A program made the position numbers and the translations under genes. Under the pieces are notes generated by a model. The model was not told where the DNA came from and made no database searches. It saw only the letters and a program-made list of their open reading frames with translations. Shown piece after piece: positions 498 to 61,386 of a stretch of 64,000 nt of DNA (its first letter is position 1; each line of letters opens with the position of its first letter). The DNA comes from Boothiomyces macroporosus (taxonomy: Eukaryota; Chytridiomycota; Chytridiomycetes; Rhizophydiales; Terramycetaceae). The stretch is taken from assembly GCA_027604185.1 (NCBI GenBank), contig JADGKB010000063.1, positions 1 to 64,000 of the forward strand, read 5' to 3'.

Positions 498-2122
498 ATG
501 GGAAAGAAAATAAGATATTCCTGTGATAATTGTGTGAAACTGGTATGTATTTGCTGATCTGTTAGAAGAGAAGATGTGATAAAAAAGAAATATGCAGTCA
601 CTGCAGCACTAAAAATATTAAATGCACATACACACAATTGGACGCTGTAGCTAAAACCTTGAACAAAGTAGAGAGCCGTATTCAGCAATTAGAGTTGAAC
701 TTGATGGTGTTCTACAACTATATTGAACAAAAGAAACCAAAGTTGTGCACCCCTCAAATGGAACTGCCTGCGACCCTGGAATCAGTGCTTTTCGAATCCA
801 AGCATGGGCAGCTGCTTACAGCAGCCTTCAAAAAGTTTCCATATCCACTATCTGTGGTTCCTGAAGTTTATTTGAGATCATCTGCAGATTTATTTTGGCC
901 CCTCGAATTTGCATTGTATGCTTATGGTGCTACTTTTATCGCAGATGAACTGGTTCCCCCAGGGCTACAAAATCGGATTGAATTGGCGGAACTGTTTATA
1001 CAAAAGTCCCAAACTTTTAAATTTGAAAACGACCACTTGAATGTTCTCACGCTGTGCATAATTGGCCAAGTATTATTTCGTAACATTCGATTAAATCTAG
1101 ATTTAGATCAGAAGGAATCTATGCTAATACACATAAAGTTTGCCATAGAAACTGCCAAATCGATTGGTCTGAACACTGAAGCAGGAATAGCAAAACTATC
1201 CCATTTTGATTATGAGAAGGAGAATCTACGAAGGATCTGGTGGCTACTATACTGCAATTTCGCGCAAGCACCTAATTCATTCGGCGAAACAATTATTTCA
1301 GACTGTGATCACATGTTATTTTTACCCTCTGATAATTTCTATTTTGAAAATGCTGGGCCAGATGACTATTATGGCATAGACCTAATGGCTTTCGCGGAAT
1401 GGTATACACCCAATACCACCATAAAATCCCTGCAAGCTAACCGGATCATTCTGAAAAAAATAATGGTAAAAACCCACCATTATTTTTACCTGGAGCTTGG
1501 TGGAGATCGTCAAGCTTGTTACGCTGCGGGTTGCATAAATGCATCACTCAACGACTGGTCTGATAATTTATTGCCCACATTAATAACACATATCACGAAA
1601 ATTCAAAAGCAACAGGCCATTGAATTAGATCAACCATGGTTTGCTCTTTACATTGCAATGTTGTACAACACTTGTAGGGTCAACCTGGTTATCCCAAACT
1701 TTATCAAAAATGTAATTAAAGGCAAGAACGTGGTACGGTTAATGTACTTTAAAGAGGGCATGGAAGCAGCGATCAACAATTCAAAACTGATTGCTCTTAT
1801 TGTAAATTTTAACACAGATGTAGATTATTTATCTCCCACATTGCTAATATGCTTATTTCATTGCGCGTTCTTTTTGCAGTGCTGTAGTAAGATTGTCCAG
1901 AGTACGAACATTGAAACCTCGTATCTGTTACATATGGATGGATTAAGGCTGTTTGGGGTCGCATTTCAAAAGTTTAATCGACTCTACAACATTCTCGTGT
2001 CAATGCAAACCATGACGCTTCTTGATTCAACAATCTTTTATGGCATGTTCAAACGTAGAAAGATGGATGAAACCATGGACAAACAAGTCCCAAACAATTT
2101 CGAAAATTTTACTTGTATTTAA
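498..2122 (+). CDS. Zn2Cys6 transcription factor with fungal-specific middle region
   Basis: Predicted 533-residue nuclear DNA-binding regulator. The first exon plus second exon give a perfect zinc cluster with cysteines at residues 9, 12, 19, 25, 28 and 35 (C-x2-C-x6-C-x5-C-x2-C-x6-C). A short linker and coiled stretch (residues about 40-60) follow, then a long helical region typical of the fungal-specific transcription factor domain, including an RRIWWLLY motif. One 23-nt intron (543-565) splits the zinc cluster between the second and third cysteine; without removing it the cluster is destroyed. ATG 498 is the first in frame and directly precedes the cluster. The target genes cannot be inferred. 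Convergent with RRN3, 48 bases away. Confidence 0.88.
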
Positions 2123-2170
2123 AAAATATTATATTATTTCCATTGTACTCTAGTGATATCGCATTATAAT

Positions 2171-4073
2171 CTAGTAATGATCATTTCCAAATGAGTGTGA
2201 ATGCGACATGGAATATGAATATCTTTCATCTAAAGACATTCCCTTTAATGAATTTTCCAAGTCAGAGTCAGTTACACCATCGCTGGCAATATCAGATTCA
2301 TCTTCTCCATCCCATTCTTGATATATTTTTGATATCGTCAACTTGCACTGGGGTAAAACTAGCGGATCGAATGGGAAAAATGACTCCAGCCTCGATACTA
2401 TGCTCAATTCCTGTGATTTTGTTTGGGACTGAATGGATTCAATTGATGTGTTTGATCTAGATGCCGAAGCATTTATCAGAGGGTAACAGTACATGATATT
2501 CAAATGATGTGCGATTTTCGCAAATTCTTGAACGATGGCTTCAGAGCAAACCTAAAGTCAGATGATAATTACCCTAAGTGGACTAAATTTCGAAAGCAAC
2601 ACCCTCTGAAAGTCAGACAGCTCTGGAGGGAAGGCTCCCGAAGTAGTTCTATCTTCCACAATCATAATTTGTTTCCATCTAAAACAGAATATATATAGAA
2701 TTGCCTGCACTGAGGAATATAAAACGCCAAATCGGTCGACCTATGTTAGTGCTAACCTAACCTGTAACTGCCCGACTAGTTCATGTTCATAGCTATCAAT
2801 ATAGGACTGACACAGTTGGTTCAATAACTTTAGGCAATGTTTTACTGACACTACCCCAACGTGTTTTGCTCTGGCAATGAAGCTTCCCAAATACGAAGCG
2901 GCAGATTCTCGTAATACCGAGGAAGAAGATACATTTAGCAAGTGAGTGACGAGCAATCCCATAAATTCTTCTGGATATTCCGGAATTAATGAGGAAGTGT
3001 AAAAAACAATAAACTGGGCAGATCTTAGCTTGTGGGTAGGCAGCATAATTTTATCGAATGAACTCAGAATTCCAAAAAATGTTTCGTTCAATAAATTTTG
3101 ATCATCGAGTTTTTTGATATTTGATATGTAGGATATAGCCAGTTGCATGACGGTATCTAACTTTGTAATCATTACTTTATAATCAGAAGTAATAATCTGA
3201 GAGCTTGCATCAGAGTCTGAATCACTGTCTTCTGATTGTACATTATGCTCCACCTCAAAATCATCCATTGCAAACACATTTTCGTTTTCCAGCTCGTCTT
3301 CAATGTCTTCAATTTGAATATCAATCTAAAAATCAGTAATAGTTACATCCATCTGTACTACAAGATCAATAATTATTTCCATCAGCTGAACTCTAATCAC
3401 TGGGGCATATTCTGCAATCGAAAGCAAACTTTTTACATAAAATGAAATGCTCGACAATGGTTCGGACTTGTGCGGGACAGATTTGGAAAGTATAGGTAGA
3501 ATGAATGATGGTCCAGCGGGAATAAGACGTAGTATTTTAGCCAATGCAGAATGGATTTGCTCAAATAGGATGGATAATGGAATGTTTGGATATTTCTTTT
3601 GACCTTGATGTGAATATGACCGTACCTGTTCTGATATATTGAACAATGGTCTGAGTAACTGGAACCACATAGGAAGACTGGGCGGATACAATGTTTTGAA
3701 CTAGGTGTAAATACATGCTGATAAAATTCTGCTCTTGATCCAACCAATCCATCTGTAATATTGCATTCACCAATGATTGCATTTTATGGTTAAGTGAGGA
3801 AACAAACAATGAAAGCGCTTGCACGAGTAGCTTGACTTGCAGTTTAGAAATCCGTTGAGGAGAAGTCGGCGACTGTGAAATAATGTGTAATAATTCGTTG
3901 TACGGCTGTTCGTTGCCCTTTCGTTATGCTTCAAATACCTTTGTTTTTTCCTGAAAGACATTGGCAAGGTATTTGGTCATGGAATCATAGTCTTTGGGAA
4001 AGTCTTCCCTTTCCGTTGCTGGTAATGAAAACCGCACATTCTTTAATTCGCTGTCCATTGGAATTCCTAACAT
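2171..4073 (-). CDS. RRN3: RNA polymerase I initiation factor RRN3 (TIF-IA)
   Basis: Links RNA polymerase I to the core factor at rDNA promoters. The spliced protein is 598 residues, the normal family size. Recognisable blocks are LPTHKLRSAQFIVFY, the SAASYLGSFIARAKHVG block in mid-protein, and the C-terminal LESFFPFDPLVL with an acidic, Ser-rich tail. An acidic Ser/Asp/Glu loop (EDIEDELENEN to DSDSDAS) sits where the family has its regulatory acidic insertion. Introns at 3918-3938, 3604-3625, 3326-3346, 2741-2761 and 2552-2572 (21, 22, 21, 21, 21 nt); all junctions keep frame and total coding length is divisible by three. Start chosen at 4073; the in-frame ATG at 4058 is an alternative. Confidence 0.93.
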
Positions 4074-4350
4074 GAAATCCAAGTGAAAGGTTGAAAAAAA
4101 ATTATCGCCGAAAATTTCAAATTGACCTCTGGATGAAACCTATAGGTGAAACAAGCTCTCGATCACTTTGAAAAACTTGTGGGGCGATCCCTTTCAAGTA
4201 CCAGCATGCTCTTATCCAGAGTGTAGACACATGTCCGGAAATTCAGGACATTTAGCTCAATGGGAATGTTTACTTGAGTGGATTATAAACATACGATGGT
4301 GGTCATCCTGAGATTTGACGTCACTGCGATAATTTTCCTACTCCTTTGAA

Positions 4351-5934
4351 ATGCAGGATGATCCACTTTTCCCATGGAAGAAGCATTCGGGCTTCAAAAA
4401 AGGCCTTTTGACAGACATTGTGATGGGGGATGAGCATATGTCGAAAAGCAAATACGAAACTACAATGAATTCAGATTACGTTCCGAAGCGAATATCAAAT
4501 AATCAAAAAATTGCAGGAAGATCCTCTGGCTTTGTAATTTCAGATCCTAGTCAAAAGCACATATCCTTTGGAGATGGTAATTTGGTTTCAAGCGAGCATC
4601 AAGAGAGCGTGACTGAAAGTGCCTACAAAGCGCCAGATGTAGACTATCTGAAAAAAGGTTGTTAAAGATCTAAATTAGACTCTAAATTGCCAACAGAGAC
4701 CTCGATTCGCCTTGCGCATCATTCTAAGCCTTTAACCGCAACTGCTGCTGCCCATGTTGGGCAACAGACACGTCAAGATCTGCCTATTGATGACCACTTC
4801 TTTAAACTGTTTACAACAACAACTGAAAAGGCATATAGGGTTCATAATGATGACTCCAAATACCCTCGACAGATATTTGGAGGGAGGAAGTCCCAGTTGG
4901 TCTTTGGTGATCAAAGTAGCCAGTTATCGTACAACACCACTCAAAGCACGTCCTTTGTAAAACACAGCCAATCAGATTTTGGACCGCATGCAAAGTATAA
5001 ACCCAAAATAACTGATATTTTCAGCACTAAACACGAGATTACTCCCCGCTCCCATTTCACCACAACCCTTAGTTCTACATATCAAGGAAAACAGATTCCC
5101 CCTGAAGATAGACAATATGTGCCTAATGTATCTCAAAAGAATGGCTCTAGCCATATTCACTTTGGACAGGATGCTTATGAAGTAGAAAATGATTTATCAG
5201 TTACAAAATCAGATTTCTCTTTCAAAAAGCTTGATTCTCCCGTAAAAAGCATTAAATCTGGTAAACCAGAGGGTATTTTGAAAGCAATGGCGCCCTCTAC
5301 AGAATTGAACATGAAGTCCTATTCAGAAGCATGCTACAAGCCCCCAGTAATAACAAATAAAGCTGCTGCAGGACTTCCCACTCAATGCTTTGGACGGAAT
5401 CCTTGCGAACCTCTTACACTAGAGCACACTTTTCATTCGGCCGTGCCTACTGGTGATCAGCTTTACTTTGATTTCGCACATGCCAATACTACGTCAAAAG
5501 GAGATTTCAAAGAATACACACTTACTAGTCCTCCTTCGCACCCACCATTGGGATACAATATCACCAAATCTAAAGTGTTTGCAAAAGATACTGAATGCAC
5601 TACTGACTATGTAACAAGCTCACATAGCGAGTTCATCCCATACACTTCCACAGAAGCCAAACTTACCAGAGGAATCCCAATAAATCCATACAGGACATCG
5701 CACCGCATAGGTTCGGATGATACCTTTGATGTTCGAACTGCTCACCAAGACGATTTCAAAAACCCAAAAATCAATTGCAAAAGACTGCCAAAGTTACCCC
5801 ATCTAGCGCAGGTAAATAAGCTGTTCCCACTGGCCAAAGATCAAATGAAAAAGTATGAAACCACAATGGAGGAGTACTATGGTGTGAGGAAAGGACTGTA
5901 CTTTAACAAGGATGGAACAGTTGCTACTAAATAG
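4351..5934 (+). CDS. SAXO/TEX45-like axonemal microtubule repeat protein
   Basis: Predicted 520-residue protein of low-complexity extended character, Pro/Thr/Ser/Lys rich, built of degenerate repeats with Ser-x-x-(H/Q)-x-x-FG and Y-x-T-T cores (for example SSHIHFGQD, SQLVFGDQS, KHISFGDGN, KYETTM near both ends). Such repeats are seen in stabilizer-of-axonemal-microtubule and TEX45 type microtubule inner or associated proteins of flagella; the assignment rests on this pattern only. One 21-nt intron at 4658-4678. No transmembrane segment or signal peptide. It shares a 277-base divergent region with RRN3 and ends 29 bases from VMA7 in convergent orientation. It could be another flagellar protein with similar repeats. 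Confidence 0.6.
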
Positions 5935-5963: not shown

Positions 5964-6359
5964 TCATCCATCGCCAAACAATTTTGAAATTCTTTTCAGC
6001 ACAGAGTCTTTAGCTGGATCATAAGGGTGATCTTTTGAAGGTATTTCCAACACTGTAGGAAAAGCTTGTTCATAACTGTCAATCATTGGCCTTATCATCT
6101 CCGCGACCTAGATCAGAAACCACGTACATGCTGATTAACCAATACAATCGCTATATCTTTACGAGTTGTAAACGTTTCAAAAGCCTCTTCAATTTTTGCA
6201 AGTGGTGTTTCTTGTTAAGTAAGACTTACTTGCATCCACTACCAAGAAGTTTGTTTGTTGTTTGGTATCGGTATGTCCTATTCCTGCGAGTAATAGTCCT
6301 GTGACTGAATCTTCGTCTCCTATTACGGCCATGTAGATTCTCTCCTTTTGAGATGCCAT
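5964..6359 (-). CDS. VMA7: V-type H+-ATPase subunit F
   Basis: Stalk subunit F of the V1 sector of the vacuolar proton pump. The spliced product is 118 residues, exactly the yeast length. It starts [20 protein letters not shown], followed by NFLVVDAKTPL, the [19 protein letters not shown] block and the C-terminal [18 protein letters not shown], all hallmarks of the family. Two introns: 6211-6229 (19 nt, among the shortest in the window) and 6108-6127 (20 nt). Start and stop codons sit 37 and 29 bases from the neighbouring coding regions. Confidence 0.97.
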
Positions 6360-6396: not shown

Positions 6397-7106
6397 TTAG
6401 GAGCTAATCGCTATAATAGCCAAGATAACAAGCACTACAATGAGAATGATGATTGTGACTTGCTGCTTGATATCCGAATTGGCCTTGATGAAATCCTTCA
6501 TCCTCTTCATACCATCCTGGAGCCTGTTTTGAGTCGCATCAACGTGGTCTTCAACTTCGCCCAGTAGTCTACCTAAGAAACGAAATACCTAGTTTGATCC
6601 TCCAATTCATCCCCCATAACCCGGCCAATTTCCTTCATATTTCTGATTGTAACAGCGACTTCATCCATTTGCTTGTCTTGCGATTGCATTATCTGTTGCT
6701 GCATCATCTGTTCATTTTCAATCATTCCAGCTCTCGATTTCTTTTCGGCTTGCGGTTGCGACTGTTTCTCCACCAGTCTTGATTTTAGCTCTTCAACTGT
6801 TCTGCGGGAATTGGAAACGAATTGTTTTCTTTCGTCAATTTCTCTCCTGTCCAATTTGAAGCGAGAAGGGTTTCCTTGTACAATCTCTATTAGTAACAAG
6901 TACTTTAATCGTATCATCCAATTCATCCAAGTCTGCATTAATGTTTTGGAGTCTGTCGCGGATATCGTTATTGAACCGCTTCTGGTCTTTTTCAGGTGTG
7001 GAATTTCGCTGTTGGAATAGTTGCTGGACTTGCGCAAGTGATTGTTCTACTTCTCTGGAATTAATTGAAAAAACCTCTTTACAATGTTGAAAGGGTCGTC
7101 AGCCAT
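6397..7106 (-). CDS. TLG1: Syntaxin-6/Tlg1-like Qc-SNARE
   Basis: 216-residue tail-anchored t-SNARE of the trans-Golgi/endosome. N-terminal MADDPFNIVK and a three-helix region with NPSRFKLDRREIDERKQFV match the syntaxin-6 N-terminal domain. The SNARE motif carries the zero-layer glutamine in ELEDQTRLLGE and ends in QDGMKRMKDFI. A C-terminal hydrophobic anchor of about 20 residues (IIILIVVLVILAIIAI) follows directly. Introns: 7055-7074 (20), 6885-6903 (19) and 6569-6588 (20). In the last two an earlier AG (giving 17 or 16 nt) would break the frame and is not used. Confidence 0.93.
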
Positions 7107-7193
7107 TTGAATTTCACGAAAAGTTTCAAAGCGCGATTCCAAACCAAATTCCAATAATAGAAATATTTCAATTTTGATGGCATTCATACTAGT

Positions 7194-8031
7194 TTATTTG
7201 CCTTTATAGTATTCAACAAAGTTGTCAATCAACACTGGCCATGCCCCTTCACTATCATGGTCCGCAAAGTCATCAGCGCTGGTGAATACAAAATCCCAAA
7301 AGAGATTCCAAGTGTCTTTGCTGATTGCCTTGCCTTTATGATTTGCCTTGTTAGTTATTGAGTACCTCAAGGAATTCTAGCCATGCGTCCATGTGCTTGA
7401 ATTTGGAACCAATCAACAAATGCCAAAATGCAATTGCTGTCTCATAACCTAGAATAAGATAAATCCAACTTAGATTCTTTTGTCCTTCGTTCTTTCCGAA
7501 AACAAATGTGAATTGATAGATTTGTTTTCCTGTAGTTTCATTCTCTAATTCTTCCCGCAACTGTGGTATTTTATCCTTGAGCTGCTCGATATTTACAACC
7601 TCTAATTAGAACGAATTACTCCCAATTCTTTACATCCTTCCGCAAATCCGTCCCTAGTGAACTCGCACATATTTTTGCATTTCATATGCCAGGCAAGGGC
7701 AACCAATACCACATCGGAAGGATCTAATCCAAGATCATCTAGATGAACAAAAATTACTGCAGAGTTGCTCAGTGCCATCCACGCCAATTATGTCTTCGTC
7801 TTGATCTTCATCAGCAACAAATACCTTTGTATTTTTCAAAGAATTCATTAATTTCCTTCAGATCGAGCTTCTTGTTGTTTGGGTTTCTGAAAAATGAGTT
7901 GACAGCATTTTGGAGGTGCCAGTTGTTCTTTACAAGAAACGTTTTTGCGTTATCCTTTCTTTGTTTAATATATGAGATTACGTAGCAGAGGTAATTTCCA
8001 TGAATTGTTCAATCTTTTGTTTCTGACTCAT
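7194..8031 (-). CDS. DCN1: DCN1-like cullin neddylation protein
   Basis: Scaffold E3 that promotes NEDD8 transfer to cullins. The spliced 238-residue protein has an N-terminal UBA-like segment (QKIEQFMEITSAT to LQNAVNSFF, residues about 5-45) and the PONY/DCUN1 domain: IGVDGTEQLCNDLGLDP, VLVALAWHMKC, ETAIAFWHLL and the C-terminal GAWPVLIDNFVEYY. Six introns in a short gene: 7959-7981 (23), 7806-7824 (19), 7739-7757 (19), 7600-7619 (20), 7449-7469 (21), 7347-7365 (19). For intron 2 a 25-nt alternative ending at the next AG would also stay in frame. The 21-nt intron 7449-7469 has no in-frame stop if retained. The start codon faces MGM1 with 53 bases between the ATGs. Confidence 0.95.
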
Positions 8032-8084: not shown

Positions 8085-10540
8085 ATGCGGCTAAAAAGTT
8101 GGAAAATGTTCTTTAAACGAGCAAGGAACGGGTTTCACTACCAGCAACGGAGAAATGCCGCCTTCATTCCTAGGACAGTCATGACCCTCATACGTTTACC
8201 TATAGCAGCCGCAGGTGCTGGAATGGGTGTGACGGCATACATGCATTACAAAGTGTCTGAAGCTACAAAAGACATGGTTCCTGATTGGATGAAGAAATCA
8301 TTTGAAAATGCAAACAAATATTTTGAATCTTTGGATTTTAATGGAAGCGTTCAAGAGGCTCAAGGGCAAATTTCAAACACTGTTGAAAAAATATTGGAAA
8401 ACAAAAAGAAACCTGGAAAGCAGCCAGAGAGTGTCACCATAGTCAAAGATGAAGAAGAGAAAAAGTACGATATTCCAGTCATTCACCAGGCCAAAATTGA
8501 TGATAACCACTTGATGGGATTGACCCGCAAATTGATAGAAATCCGCAATTTGCTAAAGTCTGTTGATACCTCCACTTCCGCACTTACCTTACCATCAATT
8601 GTTGTTGTTGGGTCGCAATCATCTGGCAAATCATCTGTGCTGGAAGCCATTGTTGGACACGAATTCTTGCCAAAGTACTTTTAGCTAATTCTAGAGGAGC
8701 AAACATGGTTACGAGAAGACCAATTGAGCTAACTTTGATCCATACACCAGATGCTGACAAGGAGTATTCAGAATTCCCTCAATTGCAACTAGGAAAAATT
8801 ACTTCGTTTGAAAAAGTTCAAAAAACTCTTACGGACTTGAATCTAGCTGTTTCTGATGAGGAGTGCGTATCTCATTCTCCTATTGAACTGAAAATTTACT
8901 CTCCTTATGTCCCTGACCTTACAATGGTGGATTTACCAGGTTTCATTCAAGTCTCTACTAAAAATCAACCACGAGCACTCAAGCAAAAGATTATTGATCT
9001 GTGTGAAAAATACATTGCAGAGCCAAACGTAATTCTTGCGGTGTCTGCAGCTGACGTTGATCTTGCAAACTCAGAAGGTAAGAAGGTCTAACAGTTAGCT
9101 CTAAGAGCTAGTAGAAGGGTGGATCCCCTTGGATTGAGAACTATTGGTGTTATAACAAAGATGGACTTGGTAGAACCTGCATTGGGAGTTTCAATGTTGA
9201 ACGTAATTTATTACTAATGCTAGAATCAAGATTTCCCATTAAGCTTGGGCTATATTGGTGTGGTAAACAAGCCTGGCACTGGCAAGTCTGCCGCCATGAT
9301 TCGATCTGAGAATGCATTTTTCAAAAAGAACCCAGAATACGATCCTTCTCAAGTGGGTTCTACCACTCTCAGAAGAAGGTTGATGGAGGTGTTGGAAAGT
9401 CATATGGGTCGTTCTTTGCACCATATTGCTGACGCCGTTGAAACTGAGCTGGATGATGCTCGCTACCAATTCAAAGTATTATACAACGACCTCAGAATCA
9501 CCCCTGAAAGCTATGTTGCCGAATGCATGGATGCACTAAAACACAAATTTAAGGATTTCACCAAGCAATTTGATAAGCCAAGTGTAAGAGAAAACATCAG
9601 AGTTATGCTGGAAAGGCGTATGATTGATATTATTTCTGATTTGTATTGGAAAGATGACCGGATCGCAGTGTTGCCAAAAGATTGTACTAACGAAGAGAAT
9701 GGGTTGTGGGATGCTAGAGTTAGCCAAGCTTCTGCGCAGTTAACTCGATCGGGTGTCGGAAAGGCTTCTGTTCAACTTATTGTTGATTCAATTGGGTCCA
9801 AGCTGGATGAAATTACTTCAGTTGAGCCTTGGAGCTTCCACGAATCTGCCAGAAAACAAGTGATTCAACATGCTACAGACTTACTTCGCTCTAAATTCCA
9901 CGTCACTGTCGCTCAAGTCGAAAATACAATCAAGCCATACAAATTTGAAGTAGATGCCACTGAATTGGAATGGAAAGACGGCCAAAGAAGAACAGTCGAA
10001 ACATTACAAAACCAACTGAACGAAAGCCAGCAGAAATTACAAGGAATAAAAGCCAACATCGGCCGTAGAAAGTTGAGACATGCCATCAAATATGTCAACT
10101 ATTTGGACGACGCACTTAAATCAAATCCAAACTTAGAGGTGCCTGATGCACCATTCCCAGCACCAGTATTAGCACAAGCGCGACAAGCCATTCACTCCCA
10201 AGCCGAAATTAGTATATTGCACCAACGTATAGCTGCAGTAAAATCTAGGCAATGTAGTTCCTTGCAGAACAAGGCATGCTGCCCCGAAGTATTCTTGTCT
10301 GTTGTTTCTGAAAAGCTTGCTTCAACTGCGGTGATGTTTATCTACATTGAGCTTCTGAACGACTTTTTCTACCAACTTCCTAGAGAAATTGACAGCAAAA
10401 TGTACTACTCACTTGGAAAGGAAGAAATATTAAAATTCTGCAAAGAGAACCCTGGTATAGAGCAGCACTTGAAAGTACAAGAAAGAAAAAACACACTAGA
10501 ACTTGTCGCCTCGAAACTCAGAGAAATCAATCGCAAATAA
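8085..10540 (+). CDS. MGM1: Mitochondrial dynamin-like GTPase Mgm1/OPA1
   Basis: Inner-membrane fusion GTPase, 797 residues. A basic N-terminus ([17 protein letters not shown]) looks like a mitochondrial presequence, followed by a hydrophobic segment ([19 protein letters not shown]). The GTPase domain shows the P-loop GSQSSGKSS, switch region NMVTRRP, VDLPG, and TKMD; the middle and effector regions continue to the C-terminus (FYQLPREID). Introns 8675-8694 (20), 9078-9098 (21) and 9203-9223 (21). In the second, the AG at 17 nt leads to a stop and the next AG restores ANSEALRAS, a conserved block. Probably processed in the intermembrane space as in yeast, but no cleavage site is assigned. Confidence 0.95.
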
Positions 10541-17191: not shown

Positions 17192-17605
17192 ATGGACAAG
17201 AAACGAGAAGGACAAAGGGGCAAATCAGCACAAAGAGGCGGACATAGTAACAGAGGAAAAGGCGGCAAATCAAATGAGCCAGTGAAAAAGAAGGAAAATA
17301 TCCTGGATCTGTCAAAGTATACCGACAAGAAAATCATTGTGAAATACCAAGGAGGCAGACAAGGTAATCGGAGATTAAAGTAGTTGTAGGAATTCTGAAA
17401 GGCTACGATTTACTTCAGAATCTGGTGCTTGACGAGACATTCGAGTATGTGCGAGGTAACTACGCTCTAATCAGATATCAATGATCCATCGCAATATACT
17501 GATGAGTTGAGAGAATTGGGTCTTGTGGTTACCAGAGGAACTGCTATTATATTAATTTCCCCGTATGATGGACAAGAGGATATCGCGAATCCCTTCCAAG
17601 AATAA
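17192..17605 (+). CDS. LSM7: U6 snRNA-associated Sm-like protein LSm7
   Basis: Subunit of the LSm2-8 (U6 snRNP) and LSm1-7 (mRNA decay) rings. 124 residues: Sm1 motif ENILDLSKYTDKKIIVKYQGG, then GILKGYDLLQNLVLDE, and Sm2 motif LGLVVTRGTAIILISP. Before the Sm fold there is a roughly 30-residue Arg/Gly/Lys-rich extension (REGQRGKSAQRGG) longer than in yeast or human LSm7. Introns 17364-17383 (20) and 17456-17474 (19). The first has tandem acceptors AAAG and TAG three bases apart; the distal one gives the family spacing between GGR and GILKG. Confidence 0.96.
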
Positions 17606-17619
17606 AATACACCTCAATT

Positions 17620-26617: not shown

Positions 26618-26635
26618 GTGTTCTAAGTTAATGGA

Positions 26636-48300: not shown

Positions 48301-49197
48301 AGAGACGAAAAGGTATTGGTAATTTGTACAAGTCTTTTCTTCTGTTCCTGATATCTTTCAGGGTTTAAAATTGGAAACCCTAAATTCAAATGCCAAAGTA
48401 CCTTCAGCATCCACGCTTGCCTGACTAAGTAGGGAATATATTGTTGCAGGATCGGTCAGGTCTGGCATGGTACTGTCGTTGGTATAACTTGTTGCATTAT
48501 CCGTTTGATCATGATCATTGAATAGTGCGCCAATCTTGAACGAAACCGCTTTGCTTAAAAATCCAGAAGTAGTAGATGCCAATGAACCTCTCCTAGGTGT
48601 TGTTGGAGATACTTTTCCACTACTTATCTCCCTTCGTTCCTCGACCAACGTTCTAGGGCTGGAAATATCATCGCGTCGACTAGTCATTCTTTCAGAGTCG
48701 TCTCTACGTCTGGAATTGGAATCGGCACTTCTCATTGTGCTCCTGTCAAGGTTTCTTGGACTATCTGAGACATTTCGACGGTCTTCCCGTCTCCTTCGTG
48801 CTGAATTATCAATTGACTTGTTTTCACTAGCAGAAACTGACATGGGTGGATTATTGGCTTCCGTTATCCTTATCCTTTCATCAGTCGGTCTTCGCTAAAG
48901 TTATTTCGCCATTACAGTCCTCCCTTCAGACCTAGTTCTCACACGTTCCCGTTCCCGTCCATCAGTCGCCTCCGTTAATTGTCTCCTTTCTCTAGGAGCT
49001 CTTCTGGAAGAACTATTACTTAAAATATCAGCTAATTCTGAATTTAAATCATCCATAGAATTATTAGTGCTTTTCGTCGTCCTTTCCAAATTCGACGTTT
49101 CTTCCATCACGATTCCTCTTAAACTCGAATCCTGTGATTAATGCATGTATACTTCTGGAGCTTTCCTTGGTATTCTGCGCTGTCTTCTCTCAGCCAT
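45365..49197 (-). CDS. Long coiled-coil protein with basic N-terminus
   Basis: 1234 residues, not assigned to a family. Residues 1-190 are disordered and Arg/Ser-rich (ERRQRIPRK, SARRRREDRRN, many RD/SP pairs), suggesting phospho-regulation. A short helical domain follows (ERYQEQKKRLVQITNTFSSL to IEAERCVLKHLAGTLRWK), possibly HR1-like. From about residue 330 to the end it is an almost unbroken coiled coil with typical heptads (VRELEAQVKVLKSTVSRLEF, EQAEEALVVARQQFFTEKEK). Centrosomal, golgin and Rho-effector proteins look like this. Introns 49132-49152, 48895-48915, 48380-48401, 48137-48157, 48039-48060, 45740-45760 (21, 21, 22, 21, 22, 21 nt). Confidence 0.8.
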
Positions 49198-52300: not shown

Positions 52301-52347
52301 TTCATCAGGGAGTCATGAATCCAAGTTTTCAGCTGCTGGTTGTCCAT
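49303..52347 (-). CDS. PRP2: Spliceosomal DEAH-box helicase Prp2/DHX16
   Basis: ATP-dependent helicase that remodels the activated spliceosome before the first transesterification. 1014 residues in one exon. N-terminal [20 protein letters not shown] and a charged middle, then motifs [20 protein letters not shown] (I), [16 protein letters not shown] (Ia), [20 protein letters not shown] (II), [15 protein letters not shown] (III), [20 protein letters not shown] (V), [20 protein letters not shown] (VI), then HA2 and OB fold ([20 protein letters not shown]). The [12 protein letters not shown] motif before motif I is typical of Prp2. It carries no intron although it is itself a splicing factor. Confidence 0.95.
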
Positions 52348-52478: not shown

Positions 52479-55223
52479 TTACTTTGACTTTGCGGCAACA
52501 GAAGACTTTTGAGATGGTTGAAACATCTTGATCTTATCTTTGACTGAGCTAACCATTCTGGGAAGCGCCGCATCTCCACCAAGGTTCTCTATACTTCCAT
52601 TACTCTTTTCTTTTTCCACAGCGAATGCTTTTTTCATTGAATCTACCTTGCCTGTTGGTGCATGCTCATTCATGTAATACGATGGCCCAAACGAGCCCTG
52701 TTCATTTATCGTTGGCCTATCCCTATTACTTTTTGATGACCTCCTCTGCAGTTCTACTGGACGTCTCATTTGCTCTACCGAATGCTTTGCACTCTCTAAA
52801 TCCAGTTCATTATTTGGTTTTGCTTTAGTTCGCAAATATGACAGTCTTTCTTTCCTAGAGCCGTCTGTTGGTGTTTTCGGTGTCATGGGTGATCCAAGCA
52901 TTATGTGCTTGTTGGCTGCCTTCCATTGTTCAAATGATACTTGTGGTTGTTGCTCTTCCTCATTTTTCACAATTTCTATTCTTAATGGACTTCTAAGCTC
53001 TGATGTGCTTGACGTTTTTTGGGCCGCTTTCAGTGGGGTTTTGACAATCTCTGGCTCATAAACAATTTCTTTCTCTGGTAGTGTTACAGCTTGTTGGGTA
53101 TTTGGCTGTGGTATAGTAACAGGAGGAATGTCTGTTGTTTTTCTTTTCTCTTCTTCTCGCTGTAATTTATTGTTTTCCTTAAGAACTGTTGGAGTAGTTG
53201 TAGCTGCTGGTTCATTCTGTGCGCGGGATTTATCGTCGATTCGCACTTCAGTAGCCTTCAATTCATTACGAAGAAGAGGTTTACTTTCCTTTTCAGTCTT
53301 TAGTTGTATTGGCTGAGTCTGTTGCAATTTTGCACTTGTTTCTTCCTTTTTGACTGGAGTTGCTTCTGGCTTTGTAGAAACTGGTTTTGGTTCATCTTTC
53401 TTGTCGGTTTGGATAGCATTTTTGGACACTGGTGCATCTTTTAGTGGTTCCTTCACAGGAACGGCTTTCGCTGCAGTTTTTGTCTCTGCAATTGGTGCTG
53501 CTGCAGTCTGGGGCTCATATACTTCGCTTTTTGACTCTGATTTGACTTCAGGCTCTTCTTCATCATTTTGGTCTTCCTCCCTCTTTTGATGTCTCATTGA
53601 AGACTTCATTACTGATCCCATACGTTTTAGATTATCACTGAAAGATTTCTTTAATGGTGCCGACTCTTCTTTCTCTTGCTCCTCCTCCATCTCTTCTTCT
53701 TCAGACTCTTTAACTTCTTTAGGTGGATATTTCGCCAATAAATCTGTTTTAGCAAGAATTCTACCTTTGAATATCGCTTTGATTTCTTTTTGTTTGGATT
53801 CTAAAGCAACATCTTCAGGCAAATCATCATCATCATTGAGAGGAACTAGGTCAATAGGTCCGTCAAACACGTATATCCAGTTTTTGTTTGATTGATCCGC
53901 ATCAAATGCCGAGCCCTGGCATTTTCCCAAGAGATTGATTACTTCAATGTGCCCTTCTGCAGAAGCACAGTGAAGAGGGGTCCACCCTTCTTTATCCCTA
54001 ATATTTACAGCAGCATTCGTTCGCGTCAATAATATTTTCACAATTTCTAATCGCCCATGTGAGCAGGCTAAATGCAAAGGAGAGAGCCATTGTTGAGGTA
54101 GACACAAATTATTCACATCAAAAGTGGATTTTGTGGTTTCATTTGGTTTGATTCCCAAGCAGGCATATACCTGGTCAATACTTTCTTGAGACCCGTCTGA
54201 ATATTGGCATAAATGTAACAACAACACGCCTTTGTCGAATTTTACTGTCTTTTTTGGTTTCTTTTGCAGACTACTTTGAGAGCTGTCAGTTCTCGTTAGC
54301 GAATCTACTTTGAAAGGCTGATTGGAAACAGTTCCCGCCCTACTTCTTCTCGTTTTTGAAGATGCTGGTGATCGCCGTCCTGAATCTAAAGAAGAGCTTT
54401 TGGTGTGGCCCTTAACAACAGCTTCTTCCTCCTCAAGCTTCTTGGCCAGCAAAGACGGAGAACCATCCTGATTTCCTTTGGGAGTTTGAGGAGAAAGAAT
54501 TTGACTCCCTTGAGGGGATGCAGTTACAAGGTCTGTTAGCGTTGGACCATTCACGACGTTTTTTCTTTTTGCCCTGTCAACTAAAATTAACAATCAAGTA
54601 CTCTCTATAACAGTCTCAAAAACACTTCTGGTAATATCATCTCCAGCGCAATCGACTGGCTTGTATTTCCTGTTATTGCTCTTTCCAACTGCTGCCCCCA
54701 ATTCAATCATCATCTGAACCAAATCACTCATACCCATAAATGAAGCCAAATGCAAAGTTGTATTTCCATCTCCCCATATTCTTCCCATAAATTCAAACAA
54801 GATTTTTTTGGCATTGATTTCCTCAGTAAAATCATTTACAAACTGGAGAATATCCATTGCCAAATCTTCTTCTCCAAGAATGCACGCAATTTGAATAGCG
54901 TTAAGATTCTCCAAACTTTTGTTATATTGATATTACCTTTCTCCTAGCAGCTCGTCGGCATCTCGTATAACTTCAGGGTCGTGCGTGTAAAAATGGTCTT
55001 TATTTGGGTAAGTAGTAGTTAATAATATTTGCAAGATAGATGTAGATGATGGATAGTTTTGGAAAATGTTTAGTATAGCTACACGATTTCCTTCATTGAT
55101 ACTCGTAAAAATTGCCTTTTCTAACGCCGAAGAGTCTGTAACATCAAATCCTAGCAGTTGCGATAACTGCTCGTCATCCATTTGGACCAAATCAGTCGAA
55201 TTATTTTTGCGAATCGTTCCCAT
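52479..55223 (-). CDS. Ankyrin-repeat protein with long disordered tail
   Basis: About 900 residues. N-terminal half has ankyrin repeats: GDGNTTLHLASFMGMSDLVQ, then after a Ser/Pro-rich linker WLSPLHLACSHGRLEIVKIL and EGWTPLHCASAEGHIEVINL. The layout (ankyrin pairs separated by a basic KKPKKTVKFDKG segment, which resembles an RVxF-type KTVKFD motif) recalls PP1 regulatory subunits of the MYPT/PPP1R12 type; this is only a suggestion. C-terminal 450 residues are Lys/Glu/Pro/Thr-rich and disordered. Introns 54916-54936 and 54581-54601 (21 nt each). Start: ATG 55223 (MGTIRKNN) preferred; the in-frame ATG at 55334 would add 37 hydrophobic, poorly convincing residues. Confidence 0.82.
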
Positions 55224-55452
55224 CCAGACGCGCTTTTGTTTAGATGGAAAAGAATGTGTAAATAAAAAAGTAACTCCATACAGCTGTCTTGAATATGGAA
55301 TAATTAAATAAGCAAATGAACGCACGATGGCCATCAAATCTTTAGAGTGTCAGGGGCAATTTAATTGATTGACAACAGATGGCAAACTAAGCGATTCTAA
55401 AATTTCAAAAACTTTATTGTCGAATAATATTCTGGGATTCCGTAAAAGCATT

Positions 55453-55689
55453 CTAAATGACTGAGCAACAACCACCTCCTTGTGCTTGGAATGGGTCGTC
55501 TTTCTTGTCGACAGGACCCCATACTGATGGTAGTAAAGCATCCTTTGTAGATTTTACATATGCAATCAGCCTGTCGTTAATATTGTCTTACGTTTGTCCT
55601 GCTTCGGAAACTTTAATACGCGGTAATTCCAGTTGCTCCCTGAGTCTCTGGGTATGCTCCATTAGCTTTCGTAATTTTAGTTCAGACAT
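55453..55689 (-). CDS. STE18: Heterotrimeric G protein gamma subunit
   Basis: 71 residues. Helical [20 protein letters not shown], the [18 protein letters not shown] block and a C-terminal lipidation signal CCSVI: a CaaX farnesylation box preceded by a palmitoylatable cysteine. Pairs with a G-beta WD40 protein at the plasma membrane. One 21-nt intron (55571-55591) divides it; neither exon alone exceeds 39 codons, so the gene is invisible to simple frame searches. Confidence 0.93.
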
Positions 55690-55972: not shown

Positions 55973-57234
55973 TCAAGCAAATGAAAAAGTACTCTTGCCC
56001 CCAGGGTTGTTTAAAACTCTTGAGCTTGGCCGATTAACAGTTTCTTCACTTCTTGCATTTGGATCACGGCGTCCAGTTCCAACAACCCTGACTGGTTCTA
56101 CTTCACCAAATGAAATTTGGCTTTGGTTGTTAGTAGGATTAATTTGCTTGCCGGTTCTAATCGCTTCGTTTGTATTTGAATCTTCTCCAATGGTGAACTG
56201 GGATCTGTTGTTCAAATCTTGGAATTGCTTGTGTCCAGGACGGTGAATGGTGTCATCATCTAAAGAAGAACGATTTGGATCCCTTCGGTTTACTTCCTTC
56301 TTTTGAATTGGCTCATCAGAGAAAATATCTGAGGATTTTGGTTTAAGAACTGGCTTTTTAGCTGCTTCTGGTTCAGGGCCAGTATTGAAAATGTCATTGG
56401 TCTTTCCTCCTGGTCTTGACAACACTCTTGATGAAGGTCTAAATGCGTCTTCTTCAGTCCCAAAAATATTTGACGTTTTGCCGCCTGGTCTTTCAATAAC
56501 TCTTGAAGAAGGTCTATATTAACAAATCCTAACCTAAACGAATTGTCATGTTGCAAAAAGTCTTGGGAAGGTGCATTTCTTTGAGGGTTCAGGCGAGGAT
56601 TTGTATCAACTTTCTCTGGAGATTCATTTTCAGCTTCTTGCACTTGATCCTTTAAAACCAAAGCAAGCTGTTGGACAGAGTTTACAATAGGTAAAGTGAC
56701 CTCAGATCCGTTAGCCTTGCAGTAAAGAGATCTTGGGAGAACAGAGATCTGTGATAAAACAGAGGCTTGGTCCCAATATACACGATATTGAGATACCTTG
56801 TCGCCTTCCAAAGCCATAATAGAGACCTGAGTGAAATTCAATTTACCAAAGATAGTTGAATCTCCTTCTTTGTAGCCTTGACTCCAGGCAAAAGCCAGTT
56901 AATTGTTTCAGAGTGAGAAACAGTCATAATGCTTTCCTCGACAATTTGGCTGCTGGTGATAATTTTGTTGATGATCTGGCAGTTACCCAAAAAATACCTT
57001 TTGGTTTGAGATCAAGTGGGATTGCTTGCTGTAGTCGGTCAATACTCTTTCAATTTCTGCCATTAATTTACGAGTACCTGCTTGGTTGGAAGCCAGGACA
57101 CCGGTTGGGACAAACAACAGAGTGGCATCAGTGGTGAACGATGAAGTCACATACTTGATGACAGATCCACCGTTTGAAACTGCTTTTTTAAAAGTTTCCA
57201 TCAAATCAAATTGCTGTTCAGGAAGTGAAATCAT
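55973..57234 (-). CDS. NTF2-like domain fused to Jupiter/HN1-type motifs
   Basis: 399 residues. Residues 1-150 look like an NTF2/SnoaL-like domain: SHSETINWLLPGVKATKKEI followed by QYRVYWDQASVLSQISVLP. Residues about 190-399 are disordered and carry three copies of the Jupiter/HN1 (JPT) motif: RPSSRVIERPGGKTSNIF, RPSSRVLSRPGGKTNDIF and RPSSRVLNNPGGKSTFSF. Degenerate copies (QFTIGED, QISFGEV) lie between. Jupiter proteins associate with microtubules. The fusion is inferred from one continuous spliced frame. Introns 56976-56997 (22), 56827-56846 (20) and 56514-56533 (20). Confidence 0.85.
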
Positions 57235-57336: not shown

Positions 57337-60300
57337 TTAAATTTCAATAGATTGGACACTTGGCTTTTTGTAGTGACGCAGCTGTGCTCCCGGCTCTTGA
57401 GGTTTGAATGGAGAATGCTCACCGTATGGCTTTGGAATAGGAAGTTGCCCCAAACCAGTTGTTTCTGGAATATACGCATTTGGTCTTGGCTCAGCAGTGG
57501 TTTTGACTTTGCCATGAAGATAAAAGTCGTCTTCACTAATGGTTAATCAAAAGTACAGTTCAATAAACCTTCCATTTGCAATCCTTTCTCGCTTTTCTTT
57601 GAGGGCTTGAAGCTTGGCTTTTCTTTGCTGCCTCTTTCTTTCCTCTCTGATGAAATCCCCTTCAATCTGGTCGAGAGGAATATCCCCAGATTCCAGTCGG
57701 CTTTTAGCTTCATCGAGCAAACATTCCTGGATTAGTTTTGCCAGACCTTTTCTGAAGTTTCCCTGTACAAACTCATTGCCATTGCTTGATGCATAGCCAA
57801 CTCGGACACTTTCGCCATAGTTTTCTTTGTGATATTCTTGATTCGCTTTGTCAACTCATTGATTTCTGTTGTGGTGGTATGTGTCTCATCTTTTGAATCC
57901 ACAGTTTGCATTTTGAGCCTTTCCACCAAGGCACTAACCTCCTCCAAAATCAAATCTTTTTCCAAAATGCTTTCCTGATATTAAATTAGAGTACTTCTTG
58001 AATGGATAGTAGATTTTCTAATTTCTCAATTTTCTTTGTCAGCTCTTCTTGGGTTGGATCAACACCTCCCAAATTTCTGCACCGGTTCTCATCGCTAGGG
58101 TTTTCCATTTGTCCTCCAAGGGTAAGTGTGAGCTCCATTAGCTCTGTTTTTTTCTTGTCTAACTTGGCAATTTCCTTGTCCAATTCAGCAATGATAGGTT
58201 TCTTTTGCTTTTGTAATTCTAATTGCCTTTTTGATTCTGCGAGAATCAACTGTAGTTTTCTAATCTCATCATTTCTGTCGGCTAATGCTGCGGCGCCTTT
58301 TGACATTATTTCCTTTTTCACGTTGATTCTTTCATACAAGATGCACAGCTCATCGTTCCTATCAAGGAGATGTACACCAGCCATGTTTCTGTCTTTGACC
58401 GATTGTTCGTATCTAGCTTTTAATACTTGCATTTCTTCTTCAGCAGCATTAATATTGCTATTTAAGGCTTCGATCCTAGTTAGGCGATGTTCAATCTGAT
58501 CCCTTTTATCCCTGTATTGCAGCATCAATTTATTTGCCTCGTTCCTCAAAGAATCTCTTAGTGCATACGCTGCGCTGTTTTCCTGCCTTCTTCTCTATGG
58601 ATTAACTCTAATTACAGCTAAATCCCGATCTTTGTGTGCGATTTCATGGCGCAGAATTTCAATTTCATTCGTAAGGATTTTAATCTTTTCTTTCATTTCT
58701 GCTAGTCTCTGTGTTGATGAGTGTATCATATTGAGCTTTGTTAAATATCAGTTACATATTTGTTTCTTTCATTCTTTACTAGTTCGTAAAGAGCCATAAA
58801 CTCTTTGACTCTAGTTACTGTTTCATTGCATCTCTTTGCGGCATCAACTAGAGCAATATCTTGTGTTGCATTGTCGTTCTTTAAACTTCTTATCCGAACC
58901 TGTGCTCTTATTACTTCCCTAGACTGTAATTAGCCATTTAATACCCTCAAATCTTTTTCGAGTTTGATTTCTTCGACAGCCCTAGCGACCAAACTTGCCT
59001 CTTTAATTGCGGTATCTAGTTCTGCTTCCAACTTTTTGTTGACCATAAACTGTTCCTCAAGCTCTTCGCTTTCGGCTTTTTCTACACGATCCTGCTGAAG
59101 AAATTCGTAGGTAGACACGTCTATTGCTTGTCTCAGACGCTGCACTTCTTTTTTGTAATGCTTTTCATCATTTCTTATTGCTTCCAGCTGTCTTTGGAGG
59201 TCAATTCCGTGTTTAATTGTTGCTGGAGTAGATAGTTTAATATTGTTCACAGTTAGTTCCAATCTTCTGTATAATTTCAAAAAAGTATCTTTTTCTCGAA
59301 TTACACGAAGTACCAGATCATGTTCCCTTTTAATCTTGGTTACCAAAAAGTTACATCATATACATGCTTGCGAAGAGACAAATCCAGTCGCACTCTTTCG
59401 GCTCTTTGGAAAGCAAGCTGTTCCTTGGCGAGTTCATGCTCTTTGAAAATGTCATCCACCTGTCTCTCCATTTGAATGATCAACCCTCTCCTTTCCTCGT
59501 ACGCTGCAGATAGGCCAATTCGCATTTCTTCCAAATCCTTTTTCTTTTTACCAAGTCTTTCAATTTCCTTGTCTAACGAGGAGCTTATTGTTTGTTGTTT
59601 TAAATTTTCTGCAGTGAGCGAATTCATTGCATCTCGAAGAACTTCAATTTGTTTCAATATTTTAATTGGGGTTTCTGACGCTTTTACAAACGCAATAGAG
59701 TGTTTTTCCCTTTCGGCTTCTGCCCGCGACCTTTCTTGCATCACAATCTCGTAAGCTGCTTGCTTTTCCTCCATATCTTTTTGAAGATTTTCCACTTGCT
59801 GCCTTCGCTGAAGCAAATCAATCTTGTCTTAGTAAAAAATACTTTTAGTTCCTTTGTAGCGGCAATTAACTGAGGTTCAAGCATATCCGCTTTGTGTCTT
59901 CTGATTTCTTCAATGTCGTGAATGAGGTCCTGCTTTGTTTTTGATAATTCCTCAATATCTAGTTGCAGCTTTGATTCTCTGTCGATTGCCATATCGACTT
60001 CATTTTGAGCCTACATTACTACAGAGGTACTTTGAGCAATTCTCTTTTCAAATCCCCAATTTCTGCATTTCCTGTAAATTGAAGTGAAATCGCTCGATCT
60101 TTTTCTAAGCGCTGCATAGTCATATCCTGTAAAGTGTTTCTGAAGGTTTCAGACATCTCCTTTTCAAAAGCTGTCAGACTGAGCAAAAACCCGTGTAAAT
60201 CAATAAAAGCCTTCTTGTATTTGTTGATTCTAAATCAGTTGAAACAAACCTCTCTTCCGTAACATCTTTTTTCGTTTTTAACGCATCTAGAGCCTTATAT

Positions 60301-60456
60301 CCTGGAGAACTTTCAATATTGAATAGTCCAGAAAGATAATAGTCTCCCTGATGGTCCTCATCATCAATATCTAGAACTTGCGTCTCCGGTGCTTTGGAAT
60401 CTTTAAGCTTCGCGTCTTCCTCAGCTGCTATTAGTTTTCAAGTTACTTTCTGCCAT
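57337..60456 (-). CDS. CCDC146: CCDC146/MBO2 flagellar coiled-coil protein
   Basis: 965 residues, close to human CCDC146. N-terminal [20 protein letters not shown] and [12 protein letters not shown] match the conserved start; a coiled coil fills the middle; the C-terminus [24 protein letters not shown] and [19 protein letters not shown] is the family signature. Known roles are centriole/basal body and doublet microtubule functions. Eleven introns, all 19-21 nt: 60428-60446, 60230-60249, 60011-60030, 59823-59842, 59335-59354, 58924-58944, 58736-58755, 58595-58615, 57975-57994, 57727-57746, 57536-57556. The first coding exon has only ten bases. Strong evidence that the organism builds a flagellum or centriole. 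Confidence 0.92.
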
Positions 60457-60641
60457 GAAAAAGTAAAACAATCTTGACACCTCGCGAATATTATGATGTA
60501 ATAATGCTATATCGATAATTCAACTGTATTTATTTAAAGTAATAAATAGAATGTGTATATCCCGTCTTTCTTCTATAAAATTAACCGTAGCGGTTGGTTG
60601 TTCTGCTGACGTCAGTCTAGCAGGAAATATTCTTTTACAAA

Positions 60642-61386
60642 ATGTCTGAATTTGTTTCAACCGATACTTCATTGAATGCGAATGAATCAAAAAAGGGGTT
60701 TACATTCGGGAATACCGTCAAGAAGCTGTCAAAATTTATGAGTGGCAGCAAAGCTTCCTTGAATAAACCAGTCCATCAAGAAACTGATATATCCGAAGCG
60801 ACATTTAGGAACAGTGTTAAACGTATTCCTTCAGCAAAATTAAAAGGTATCACCACTTGGTTTAGCAAGGGCAAGTCTAAAGTCACTGAAAAAGAAAAGA
60901 ACGAAATTGAAAGAGAATCGACCGCTCGCACAAAAGTATACAAAACCGAAGGCATGTTTGAGGATAGAGAAAGCGAGCCTGTTGATCCAGAGTATTTAGA
61001 AAGCATGCAAAGGGAATACGCTTCGTCAGTAGAAGATGCAACATGGAAAGTTCCATTCCATGTAGGCAGCGCAGACATTTACACTTCACCAACAGTAGAG
61101 ATGCTTCCAAGGAGAGAAGATGCCAATGTAATTCCCCGACAACGTTCAGACTCATTGAAAAGAGCAGACTCTATTGATGAATTTCAAGGTAGACGCCAAG
61201 GCATTTACATTCCAACAACATTAAAAGAAGCAAAGGAGAACCCAACCAAATCCGCCTTTGACATAAACAGAGAACACATGGTTTCGTCCCAGGTAAAACA
61301 AACTAATACAGGATGACGCATTCAAAATATCTGATGCTGATCAGGTAGATGATCTCGTTTGTTTCGTAGAACATCCTGATTGTTGA
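60642..61386 (+). CDS. Unrecognised small basic protein
   Basis: 241 residues. The N-terminal half is Lys/Ser-rich with two similar pieces, FGNTVKKLSKFMSGSKASLN and FRNSVKRIPSAKLKGITTWF, ending SKGKSKVTEKEK. The middle is acidic (EDRESEPVDPEYLESM), then phosphorylatable-looking RQRSDSLKRADSIDEF. One 19-nt intron (61303-61321) adds a conserved-looking acidic last exon ending VEHPDC. No family recognised. The start codon is 185 bases from the CCDC146 start on the other strand. Confidence 0.65.

Follow-up and report, generated by a model that had tools for sequence, protein, structure and literature searches.

Very short introns are a known kind, and the passages on introns in the published reports place them in ciliates, relic nuclei and reduced parasites. 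Chlorarachniophyte nucleomorphs carry introns of 18-21 bp, >800 of them in about 300 genes, and mikrocytids, reduced parasites with a reduced spliceosome, have introns of 16-17 nt (n = 224; both PMC10245619). In the heterotrich Stentor coeruleus the introns measure 15-16 nt, with the branch adenosine at nt 10-11 and a 5-nt tail, and U2AF2 is reported (PMC9505925), while in Paramecium introns of around 25 nt are the only bulk class (PMC5014332). The nearest case that we found among fungi and their kin is the microsporidian Encephalitozoon cuniculi, with 37 introns of 22-76 nt (PMC3629993). Here, we analyze introns of 18-24 nt in the chytrid Boothiomyces macroporosus (Chytridiomycota, Rhizophydiales, Terramycetaceae), starting from a window of 64,000 nt, the whole stretch under study (contig JADGKB010000063.1 of GenBank assembly GCA_027604185.1, positions 1 to 64,000 of the forward strand). 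These segments are very probably genuine U2-type spliceosomal introns that form the standard class of this species, and probably that of its whole family as well.

Each of the described systems resembles this one in part, and at about 20 nt the introns here come near the lower end of all known intron lengths. Like nucleomorph introns, those of B. macroporosus are very short and uniform but, unlike those of a relic endosymbiont nucleus, they lie in the nuclear genome of a fungus (15.2 Mb in 216 contigs), which holds ~23,000 of them by a crude scaling from our 264-kb sample. They share a narrow size range and conserved motifs with mikrocytid introns, here in a fungus rich in introns, where U1, U2AF65 and SF1 are all found. 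As in Paramecium they are the bulk class, but they are shorter, and lengths of 21 nt, a multiple of three, are not obviously depleted (96 of 400, stop-free ones being under-called). Compared with Stentor, to the extent that its report describes them, the fixed donor-to-branch distance, the 5-nt tail and the presence of U2AF2 (U2AF65 here) are shared, whereas here the branch adenosine lies 4-5 nt further from the donor, YTRAY is clear, lengths run from 18 to 24 nt and there is a second, longer class. The sizes given for E. cuniculi overlap at 22-24 nt; unlike that reduced parasite with few introns, B. macroporosus has many, in a tight peak at 20 nt.

The first-pass annotation of the window knew of no fungus described in this way. 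That holds for chytrids among the listed matches of a search of open papers, which contained no chytrid whose introns are this short, and is weakened by E. cuniculi, whose introns go down to 22 nt; 'undescribed' is provisional, as subscription papers lay mostly outside the scope of the search. The passages on introns in genome papers for Batrachochytrium and Synchytrium, and passages in papers on sanchytrids, Aphelidium, Paramicrosporidium and single-cell zoosporic fungi, give no such lengths. What appears to be new is an ultrashort bulk class in an intron-rich fungus, together with a probable second class of different branch anatomy.

Our sample comprised the window (G+C 36-40%) and twenty 10-kb stretches, in total 264 kb or 1.7% of the genome; the deposition of these genomes is attributed to Amses and colleagues (2022). 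Genes were called from coding-hexamer scores, with any intron length from 14 to 200 nt admitted at equal cost and longer introns disallowed. Using this flat prior and GT..AG as the sole requirement, we obtained 85 introns, 42 of them at 19-23 nt, compared to 5.6 on average and at most 16 in that range for 59 other dinucleotide pairs run as decoys; the pair that reaches 16, TA..GA, is probably a one-base-shifted echo of GT..AG. Learned donor and branch signals under the same flat length prior gave 332 introns, 224 at 17-24 nt with a mode of 20, the remainder forming a thin, even tail without a mode up to 200 nt, in which the long calls are probably false. The final set, built with learned motifs and a length prior (the AG acceptor being imposed, not learned), comprises 148 genes that total 192 kb of coding sequence and hold 421 introns. 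Among these, 400 measure 18-24 nt (3 at 18, 69 at 19, 167 at 20, 96 at 21, 44 at 22, 14 at 23 and 7 at 24 nt), none 25-38 nt, and 21 are longer, the last being treated as noise bar two with clear signals. The main mode is below 25 nt and no normal-sized mode exists up to 200 nt, as befits an ultrashort standard class. Each kb of coding sequence holds 2.1 ultrashort introns on average.

In the window, 106 of the 111 modelled introns fall at 19-24 nt (18 at 19, 38 at 20, 31 at 21, 12 at 22, 5 at 23 and 2 at 24 nt), and three more lie outside the models (543-565, the in-frame 21-nt segment 7449-7469, and 16077-16097), giving 109. The first-pass annotation had described about 117 introns here, almost all of 19-24 nt with a mode of 20-21. 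Of the three longer introns that it listed (27, 32 and 42 nt), we recovered the 42-nt interval but neither of the others. At that interval (40171-40212, plus strand), the final models place a 22-nt and a 20-nt intron exactly abutting, with no exon between, where the flat-prior model has one 42-nt intron; either a single intron or stepwise (recursive) removal would account for it. Long calls in the window (63, 71, 136, 169 and 174 nt) were not convincing. A motif-and-length count in the raw window contains the peak, in weak form.

The short peak recurs across the genome, as had been claimed, both in the sample and in a genome-wide pattern search. The pattern GTAAGTN{0,30}CTAACN{1,6}AG has 112 matches; among the first 100 listed, 85 are 18-24 nt long, 1 is 25-35 nt and 14 are 36-47 nt. 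With the shuffled donor GATAGT in place of GTAAGT, all 40 matches (2 at 15-17, 7 at 18-24, 17 at 25-35 and 14 at 36-46 nt) show no short peak. The interval of 25-35 nt is nearly empty, the complete lists for two genome-wide patterns having two matches there (26 and 32 nt). In that interval GTAAGT followed by CTAAC..AG is far rarer than the shuffled donor (2 versus 17), as if avoided.

Removal of these segments restores conserved reading frames, as expected of U2-type introns. Compared with six solved proteins, 23 of 24 junctions show no gap in the few residues around them. They lie in genes for V-ATPase subunit F (5964..6359, minus; introns 6211-6229 and 6108-6127, 19 and 20 nt; 2/2 against 7uw9_N), a gamma-butyrobetaine dioxygenase-like protein (21261..22299, plus; 21303-21323, 21392-21412, 21559-21577, 21680-21699, 21744-21762, 21856-21875, 22013-22033 and 22055-22073; 7/7 aligned junctions against 3ms5_A, the first of the 8 being outside the alignment), guanylate kinase (23325..24036, plus; 23518-23537 and 23855-23874, both 20 nt; 2/2 against 1gky_A), methylthioribulose-1-phosphate dehydratase (24056..24859, plus; 24083-24105, 24240-24258 and 24720-24740, 23, 19 and 21 nt; 2/2 aligned junctions against 4m6r_A, the first of the 3 being outside the alignment) and AMPK gamma/SNF4 (29549..30522, minus; 30283-30302, 30166-30187, 30045-30063, 29868-29887, 29809-29829 and 29714-29736; 6/6 against 2oox_G). 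The sixth, a DCN1-like gene (7194..8031, minus; 7959-7981, 7806-7824, 7739-7757, 7600-7619 and 7347-7365, 23, 19, 19, 20 and 19 nt), has 4/5 gap-free junctions, for one of which the test ran just as far as an alignment row reaches, and its in-frame 21-nt segment 7449-7469, missed by the model, appears as a 7-residue insert relative to 8or2_F.

Two larger genes add to this. In the gene for Elongator subunit ELP1 (13123..17154, minus; introns 16805-16823, 16704-16723, 15960-15980, 15733-15754, 15204-15223, 14990-15010, 14760-14779, 14573-14592, 14415-14435, 13692-13711 and 13389-13409, with the in-frame 21-nt 16077-16097 missed by the model), 10 of 11 junctions are gap-free compared with Globomyces and 9 of 11 compared with each of three other more distant chytrids. 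In the U2AF65 gene, five ultrashort introns must go, and the spliced protein then matches solved U2AF65 chains over the RNA-binding domains; an unspliced genome search stays below the cut-off (230.7 of 310.3 bits) and meets 4 internal stops.

The ultrashort introns share a tight anatomy. Donors are GT in 395 of 400 and GC in 5; position 3 is A in 356, position 4 is A, C or T, and mostly TT follows, the usual +5 G being present in 73 only, so that donor information amounts to 1.09 bits at +3 and 0.23, 0.08 and 0.21 bits at +4, +5 and +6. A YTRAY branch motif occurs in 307 of 400, with its adenosine at nt 14-15 in 254 of the 307 and 5-6 nt from the 3' end in 250, which leaves no room for the pyrimidine tract that U2AF65 reads in other eukaryotes. 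This is the anatomy that the first-pass annotation had sketched, with GT (mostly GTA) starts and a CTAAC-like branch site too near the 3' end for a polypyrimidine tract. The donor and branch consensus is of the U2 type.

The machinery that would act on them looks ordinary in its U1 and U2 pairing segments, U2AF65 and SF1, as far as checked. Genes for U1, U2 (two copies) and U6 small nuclear RNAs were found, U6 above its Rfam cut-off and U1 just under (68.8 of 69.5 bits). The U1 5' end is intact and reads ATACTTACCTG, U6 carries ACAGAGA, and both U2 copies (C80:60682-60874 and C178:9607-9797) have an identical branch-pairing segment, GTAGTATCTGTTC, with some flanking bases differing on either side; these are the standard forms of all three. 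The GTAGTA of U2 is able to pair with the YTRAY branch site. U2AF65 and SF1 are both found, and the helix-hairpin domain of SF1 is present. Frame, homology across the junctions, donor and branch consensus and U2 pairing are all consistent with the spliceosomal nature that had been proposed for the segments.

Splicing of such an intron would produce a lariat whose loop measures 14-15 nt and whose tail measures 5-6 nt. U1 and then U6 would occupy nt 1-6 and U2 about nt 11-15, with 4-5 nt left between them; in known early-complex structures, a link of this length would not span the distance between the donor and branch helices. Because only 4-5 nt separate the two contacts, donor and branch are probably recognized jointly, as one compact unit. 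Pairing beyond GTA would be largely given up, which fits the low information at +4 to +6, and the lower limit of length would be set by the donor-to-branch distance.

The first-pass account of the longer introns needs one correction: they include an apparent separate class of ~40-55 nt, itself rare, with its own 3' signal. A wider-spacing GTAAGT pattern gave 25 long matches genome-wide (24 distinct), 12 of which were chosen by eye for a check of gene context. Nine of the 12 fall in predicted genes whose reading continues across the junction, with tryptophanyl-tRNA synthetase and DnaJ-, NudC-, importin- and SSRP1-like genes (names by eye) among the hosts; the other three, which are without gene context, have U2 pairing at 12 of 18 positions, a value reached by 298 of 5,000 shuffles. 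The gene finder added a 46-nt intron right behind the start codon of ribosomal protein S28 (L035) and a 52-nt intron in mitochondrial malate dehydrogenase, both picked by their ends among its 21 long calls. Across the junction, malate dehydrogenase (52-nt intron) and tryptophanyl-tRNA synthetase (44-nt intron) both align without gaps. Introns of 41-54 nt with GTAAGT-like donors are found at L045, L047-L050, L053-L056, L015:9744-9789 (+) and L027:1244-1295 (-), most with a GRRCAG-like element before CTAAY (L054 is without CAG). Introns directly behind the ATG occur at L033 (73 nt), L035 (46 nt) and L042 (48 nt), L033 and L042 lying in what look by eye like genes for other small conserved proteins; the first introns of yeast ribosomal protein genes are similarly placed.

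Long introns often carry CAG 1-3 bases upstream of CTAAY. The element GRRCAG is complementary, G-U pairs included, to CUGUUC of U2, one base after the branch-pairing GUAGUA, and we read it as a longer U2-branch helix that these introns would form. Across all 24 distinct long matches, U2 pairing reaches 97 of 144 positions compared to 81.3 +/- 3.9 in shuffles (0/5,000 reach it). The excess is found in the 17 matches ending in YAG (76 of 102 versus 59.7 shuffled, 0/5,000) and is absent from the 7 ending in RAG (21 of 42 versus 21.5) and from 23 decoys (82 of 138 versus 83.9). The decoys were the 23 of 40 shuffled-donor matches with a spacer of at least 14, duplicates, one variant and one likely holder of an ultrashort intron having been dropped. 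In 11 hand-picked long introns (nine from the 12 chosen by eye out of 25, and two chosen by eye from the 21 gene-finder calls), pairing reaches 61 of 66 (0/5,000 shuffles), a value biased by selection. A separate pattern with ACAG before the branch had 31 matches versus 19 when reversed; some are ultrashort introns with a chance ACAG (e.g., L036 and L041), and it was not used for counting.

Several results weigh against a separate long class. Of the nine in-gene cases, only four gained in coding score once the intron was taken out, 15 of the 24 distinct matches are without CAG, and the 14 long matches of 36-47 nt among the 100 of 112 listed equal the decoy's 14. Because of this equality, it is the signals and the host genes that speak for the class, not its number. 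It may be that the 40-55-nt introns are ordinary outliers of a single class, their CAG being a leftover 3' splice site or a product of chance rather than a partner of U2. That account draws on the mere 25 candidates that the strict pattern yields genome-wide and on the many without CAG, which could itself be an old or alternative acceptor; yet CAG precedes the branch in 9 of 24 long matches versus 1 of 23 decoys, all nine among the 17 ending in YAG, and in the 11 hand-picked introns the excess is highest at U2 windows 0-2 nt past GTAGTA and weaker on the T-rich stretch beyond. We consider the single-class account somewhat doubtful, though a serious competitor.

The longer U2-branch helix and the near-empty interval of 25-35 nt suggest instead two working geometries, with long introns being few. 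One spliceosome would then handle a compact form, with the branch adenosine held 13-14 nt downstream of the intron's first base, and a spread-out form of at least ~40 nt that favours a U2-branch duplex of 10-11 bp (GRRCAG plus ACTAAY). The long class, with its strong donor and often extended branch site, would probably be recognized in the ordinary, spread-out way, and introns of 25-35 nt, which would exceed the compact mode yet fall short of the ordinary one, would fit neither and be excluded. We put this forward tentatively, as a possibility that we rate at somewhat less than even.

The standing of the ultrashort introns themselves is much firmer, and here too some findings count against it. 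The gene finder was trained on the very sequence that it reads, and 93 of the 400 introns are without a YTRAY match, although many of the 30 inspected are near misses such as GTAAC, TTCAY or CTAAA. One of the 24 junctions, in the DCN1-like protein, has a one-residue gap; at the tenth junction of ELP1, the rows of all four distant chytrids show 2-3 gap columns; and compared with three close relatives, ELP1 is gap-free at 10, 8 and 8 of 11 junctions, where the gaps correspond to inserts in the relatives' public models or to stretches that these models leave out. The reversed-pattern control exceeds the genome-wide pattern (295 versus 112), as it does a second such pattern (112 versus 58) and the long-spacing pattern. 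Since it outnumbers the pattern, genome-wide totals alone prove nothing, and the length profile carries the proof; we judged this control unfit, as unrelated causes may make a motif commoner or rarer than its reverse, and the shuffled donor took its place.

The segments might instead stay in, being read through, bypassed, frameshifted over, or artefacts of gene models in a compact, AT-rich genome. Every junction is indeed known from sequence alone, the flat-prior model does yield its tail of probably false long calls, and the public ELP1 record translates two in-frame segments of 21 nt as protein. Retention would, however, shift the frame in 294 of the 400 and create an in-frame stop in 81 (neither in 23, with 2 at cut gene ends unscored), and this explanation must also contend with decoy dinucleotides that show no such peak, homologues without residues at the sites and a fixed branch position; we regard it as very unlikely. 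Excision from DNA before transcription, as of ciliate internal eliminated sequences, the smallest of which in Paramecium are near this size, is still more remote and hardly credible, as it requires neither GT-AG ends nor a U2-pairing branch motif and we know of no germline/soma split in fungi. We conclude that the first-pass annotation was right about spliceosomal introns of this size and slightly understated its case.

Public annotation of ELP1 illustrates how such introns are handled. The spliced protein equals B. macroporosus HK103_006150 by eye, save two places where the public model differs, and departs from that of Boothiomyces sp. JEL0838 at scattered residues. For this one gene, the public B. 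macroporosus model removes 9 of 12 ultrashort introns as modelled here, departs at one, and keeps the stop-free, in-frame 21-nt introns 16077-16097 and 13389-13409 (minus) as 7-residue inserts; the JEL0838 protein is without both. At the place of 13389-13409, ELP1 of Terramyces sp. JEL0728 has an insert, SNAFLTLG, which can be back-translated to a putative 21-nt intron of the form GTAAYGCNTTYYTAACNTTAG. Because Terramyces ELP1 carries such an insert, ultrashort introns probably date back to the origin of the family or earlier. When exons were scanned at a strict threshold for ultrashort introns that the models had missed, the scan gave 1 sense versus 10 antisense hits and is no measure of how many stop-free 21-nt introns are under-called.

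If these readings are true, ultrashort introns are separable from genome relics and parasitism, the minimum donor-to-branch distance becomes testable in a fungus whose group can be cultured, and an internal control within the same cell is offered by the longer introns, rare as they are. This chytrid would be a promising place to study the splicing machine on introns seemingly too short for it. In practice, software for gene prediction or read mapping fails here if its lower limit on intron length is set above 20 nt, and a stop-free intron of 21 nt can be deposited as protein, adding a false 7-residue insert to the public record, as happened with ELP1.

Several other genes of the window are recognizable. 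The first (498..2122, plus), which we take to be a Zn2Cys6-type (Zn-cluster) transcription factor, has a long open reading frame with a Fungal_trans match below the curated cut-off (E 5.8e-4), and splicing of its 23-nt intron 543-565 gives SCDNCVKL joined to KRRCDKKEICSHC. Gene models with domain matches are an Mgm1/OPA1-like dynamin (8181..10540, plus; 8675-8694, 9078-9098 and 9203-9223, 20, 21 and 21 nt; Pfam LIS_MGM1 and Dynamin_M in the last exon), a DHX29-type helicase (31382..35364, minus; 35139-35160, 33379-33400, 32933-32952, 32721-32742 and 32196-32218, 22, 22, 20, 22 and 23 nt; Pfam DHX29 domains in the long reading frame) and an ankyrin-repeat gene (52479..55689, minus; 55571-55591, 54916-54936 and 54581-54601, all 21 nt; Pfam Ank in the long reading frame). 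The Prp2/DHX16 gene (49303-52347) is intronless and, over the 621 residues searched, 100% identical to a Boothiomyces sp. JEL0838 protein. Most other named sequences among its best matches are chytrid, with a few animal records of odd length, one of which has the top score at 70% identity. Together with ELP1, this protein places the window in B. macroporosus or a strain very close to it.

Further gene models were named by eye. A putative gelsolin-like gene (37756..38921, plus) has introns 37775-37794, 38001-38021, 38137-38156 and 38523-38541 (20, 21, 20 and 19 nt), and the large, putative Nup192/205-like gene (39981..45232, plus) has the abutting pair 40171-40192 and 40193-40212 followed by 44053-44072, 44513-44532 and 44801-44819. 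Two coiled-coil genes on the minus strand are intron-rich: 45365..49197 (49132-49152, 48895-48915, 48380-48401, 48137-48157, 48039-48060, 47587-47610 and 45740-45760) and 57337..60456 (60428-60446, 60230-60249, 60011-60030, 59823-59842, 59335-59354, 58924-58944, 58736-58755, 58595-58615, 57975-57994, 57727-57746 and 57536-57556).

The remaining gene models are listed by strand. On the plus strand, they are 4351..5934 (intron 4658-4678, 21 nt), 17192..17605 (17364-17383 and 17456-17474; 20 and 19 nt), 30594..31387 (31061-31080; 20 nt), 39219..39865 (39597-39616; 20 nt), 60642..61926 (61293-61311; 19 nt) and a small gene of low coding score, 29256..29528 (29296-29315, 29435-29455 and 29474-29495; 20, 21 and 22 nt). 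On the minus strand, they are 2171..4058 (3918-3938, 3604-3625, 3326-3346, 2741-2761 and 2552-2572; 21, 22, 21, 21 and 21 nt), 6397..7187 (7055-7074, 6885-6903 and 6569-6588; 20, 19 and 20 nt), 17938..19288 (19091-19110, 18854-18875 and 18736-18754; 20, 22 and 19 nt), 24927..28837 (26623-26643, 26336-26355 and 25933-25953; 21, 20 and 21 nt), 35475..37359 (37156-37175, 36251-36269 and 35921-35943; 20, 19 and 23 nt), 55973..57234 (57057-57077, 56976-56997, 56827-56846 and 56514-56533; 21, 22, 20 and 20 nt) and, again with a low coding score, 22692..22994 (22965-22988; 24 nt).

Elsewhere in the genome, the same intron string is repeated at steps of ~2 kb on C143 (578, 2599 and 4620), C90 (30164 and 32235) and C181 (16362 and 18293), which suggests tandemly repeated genes.

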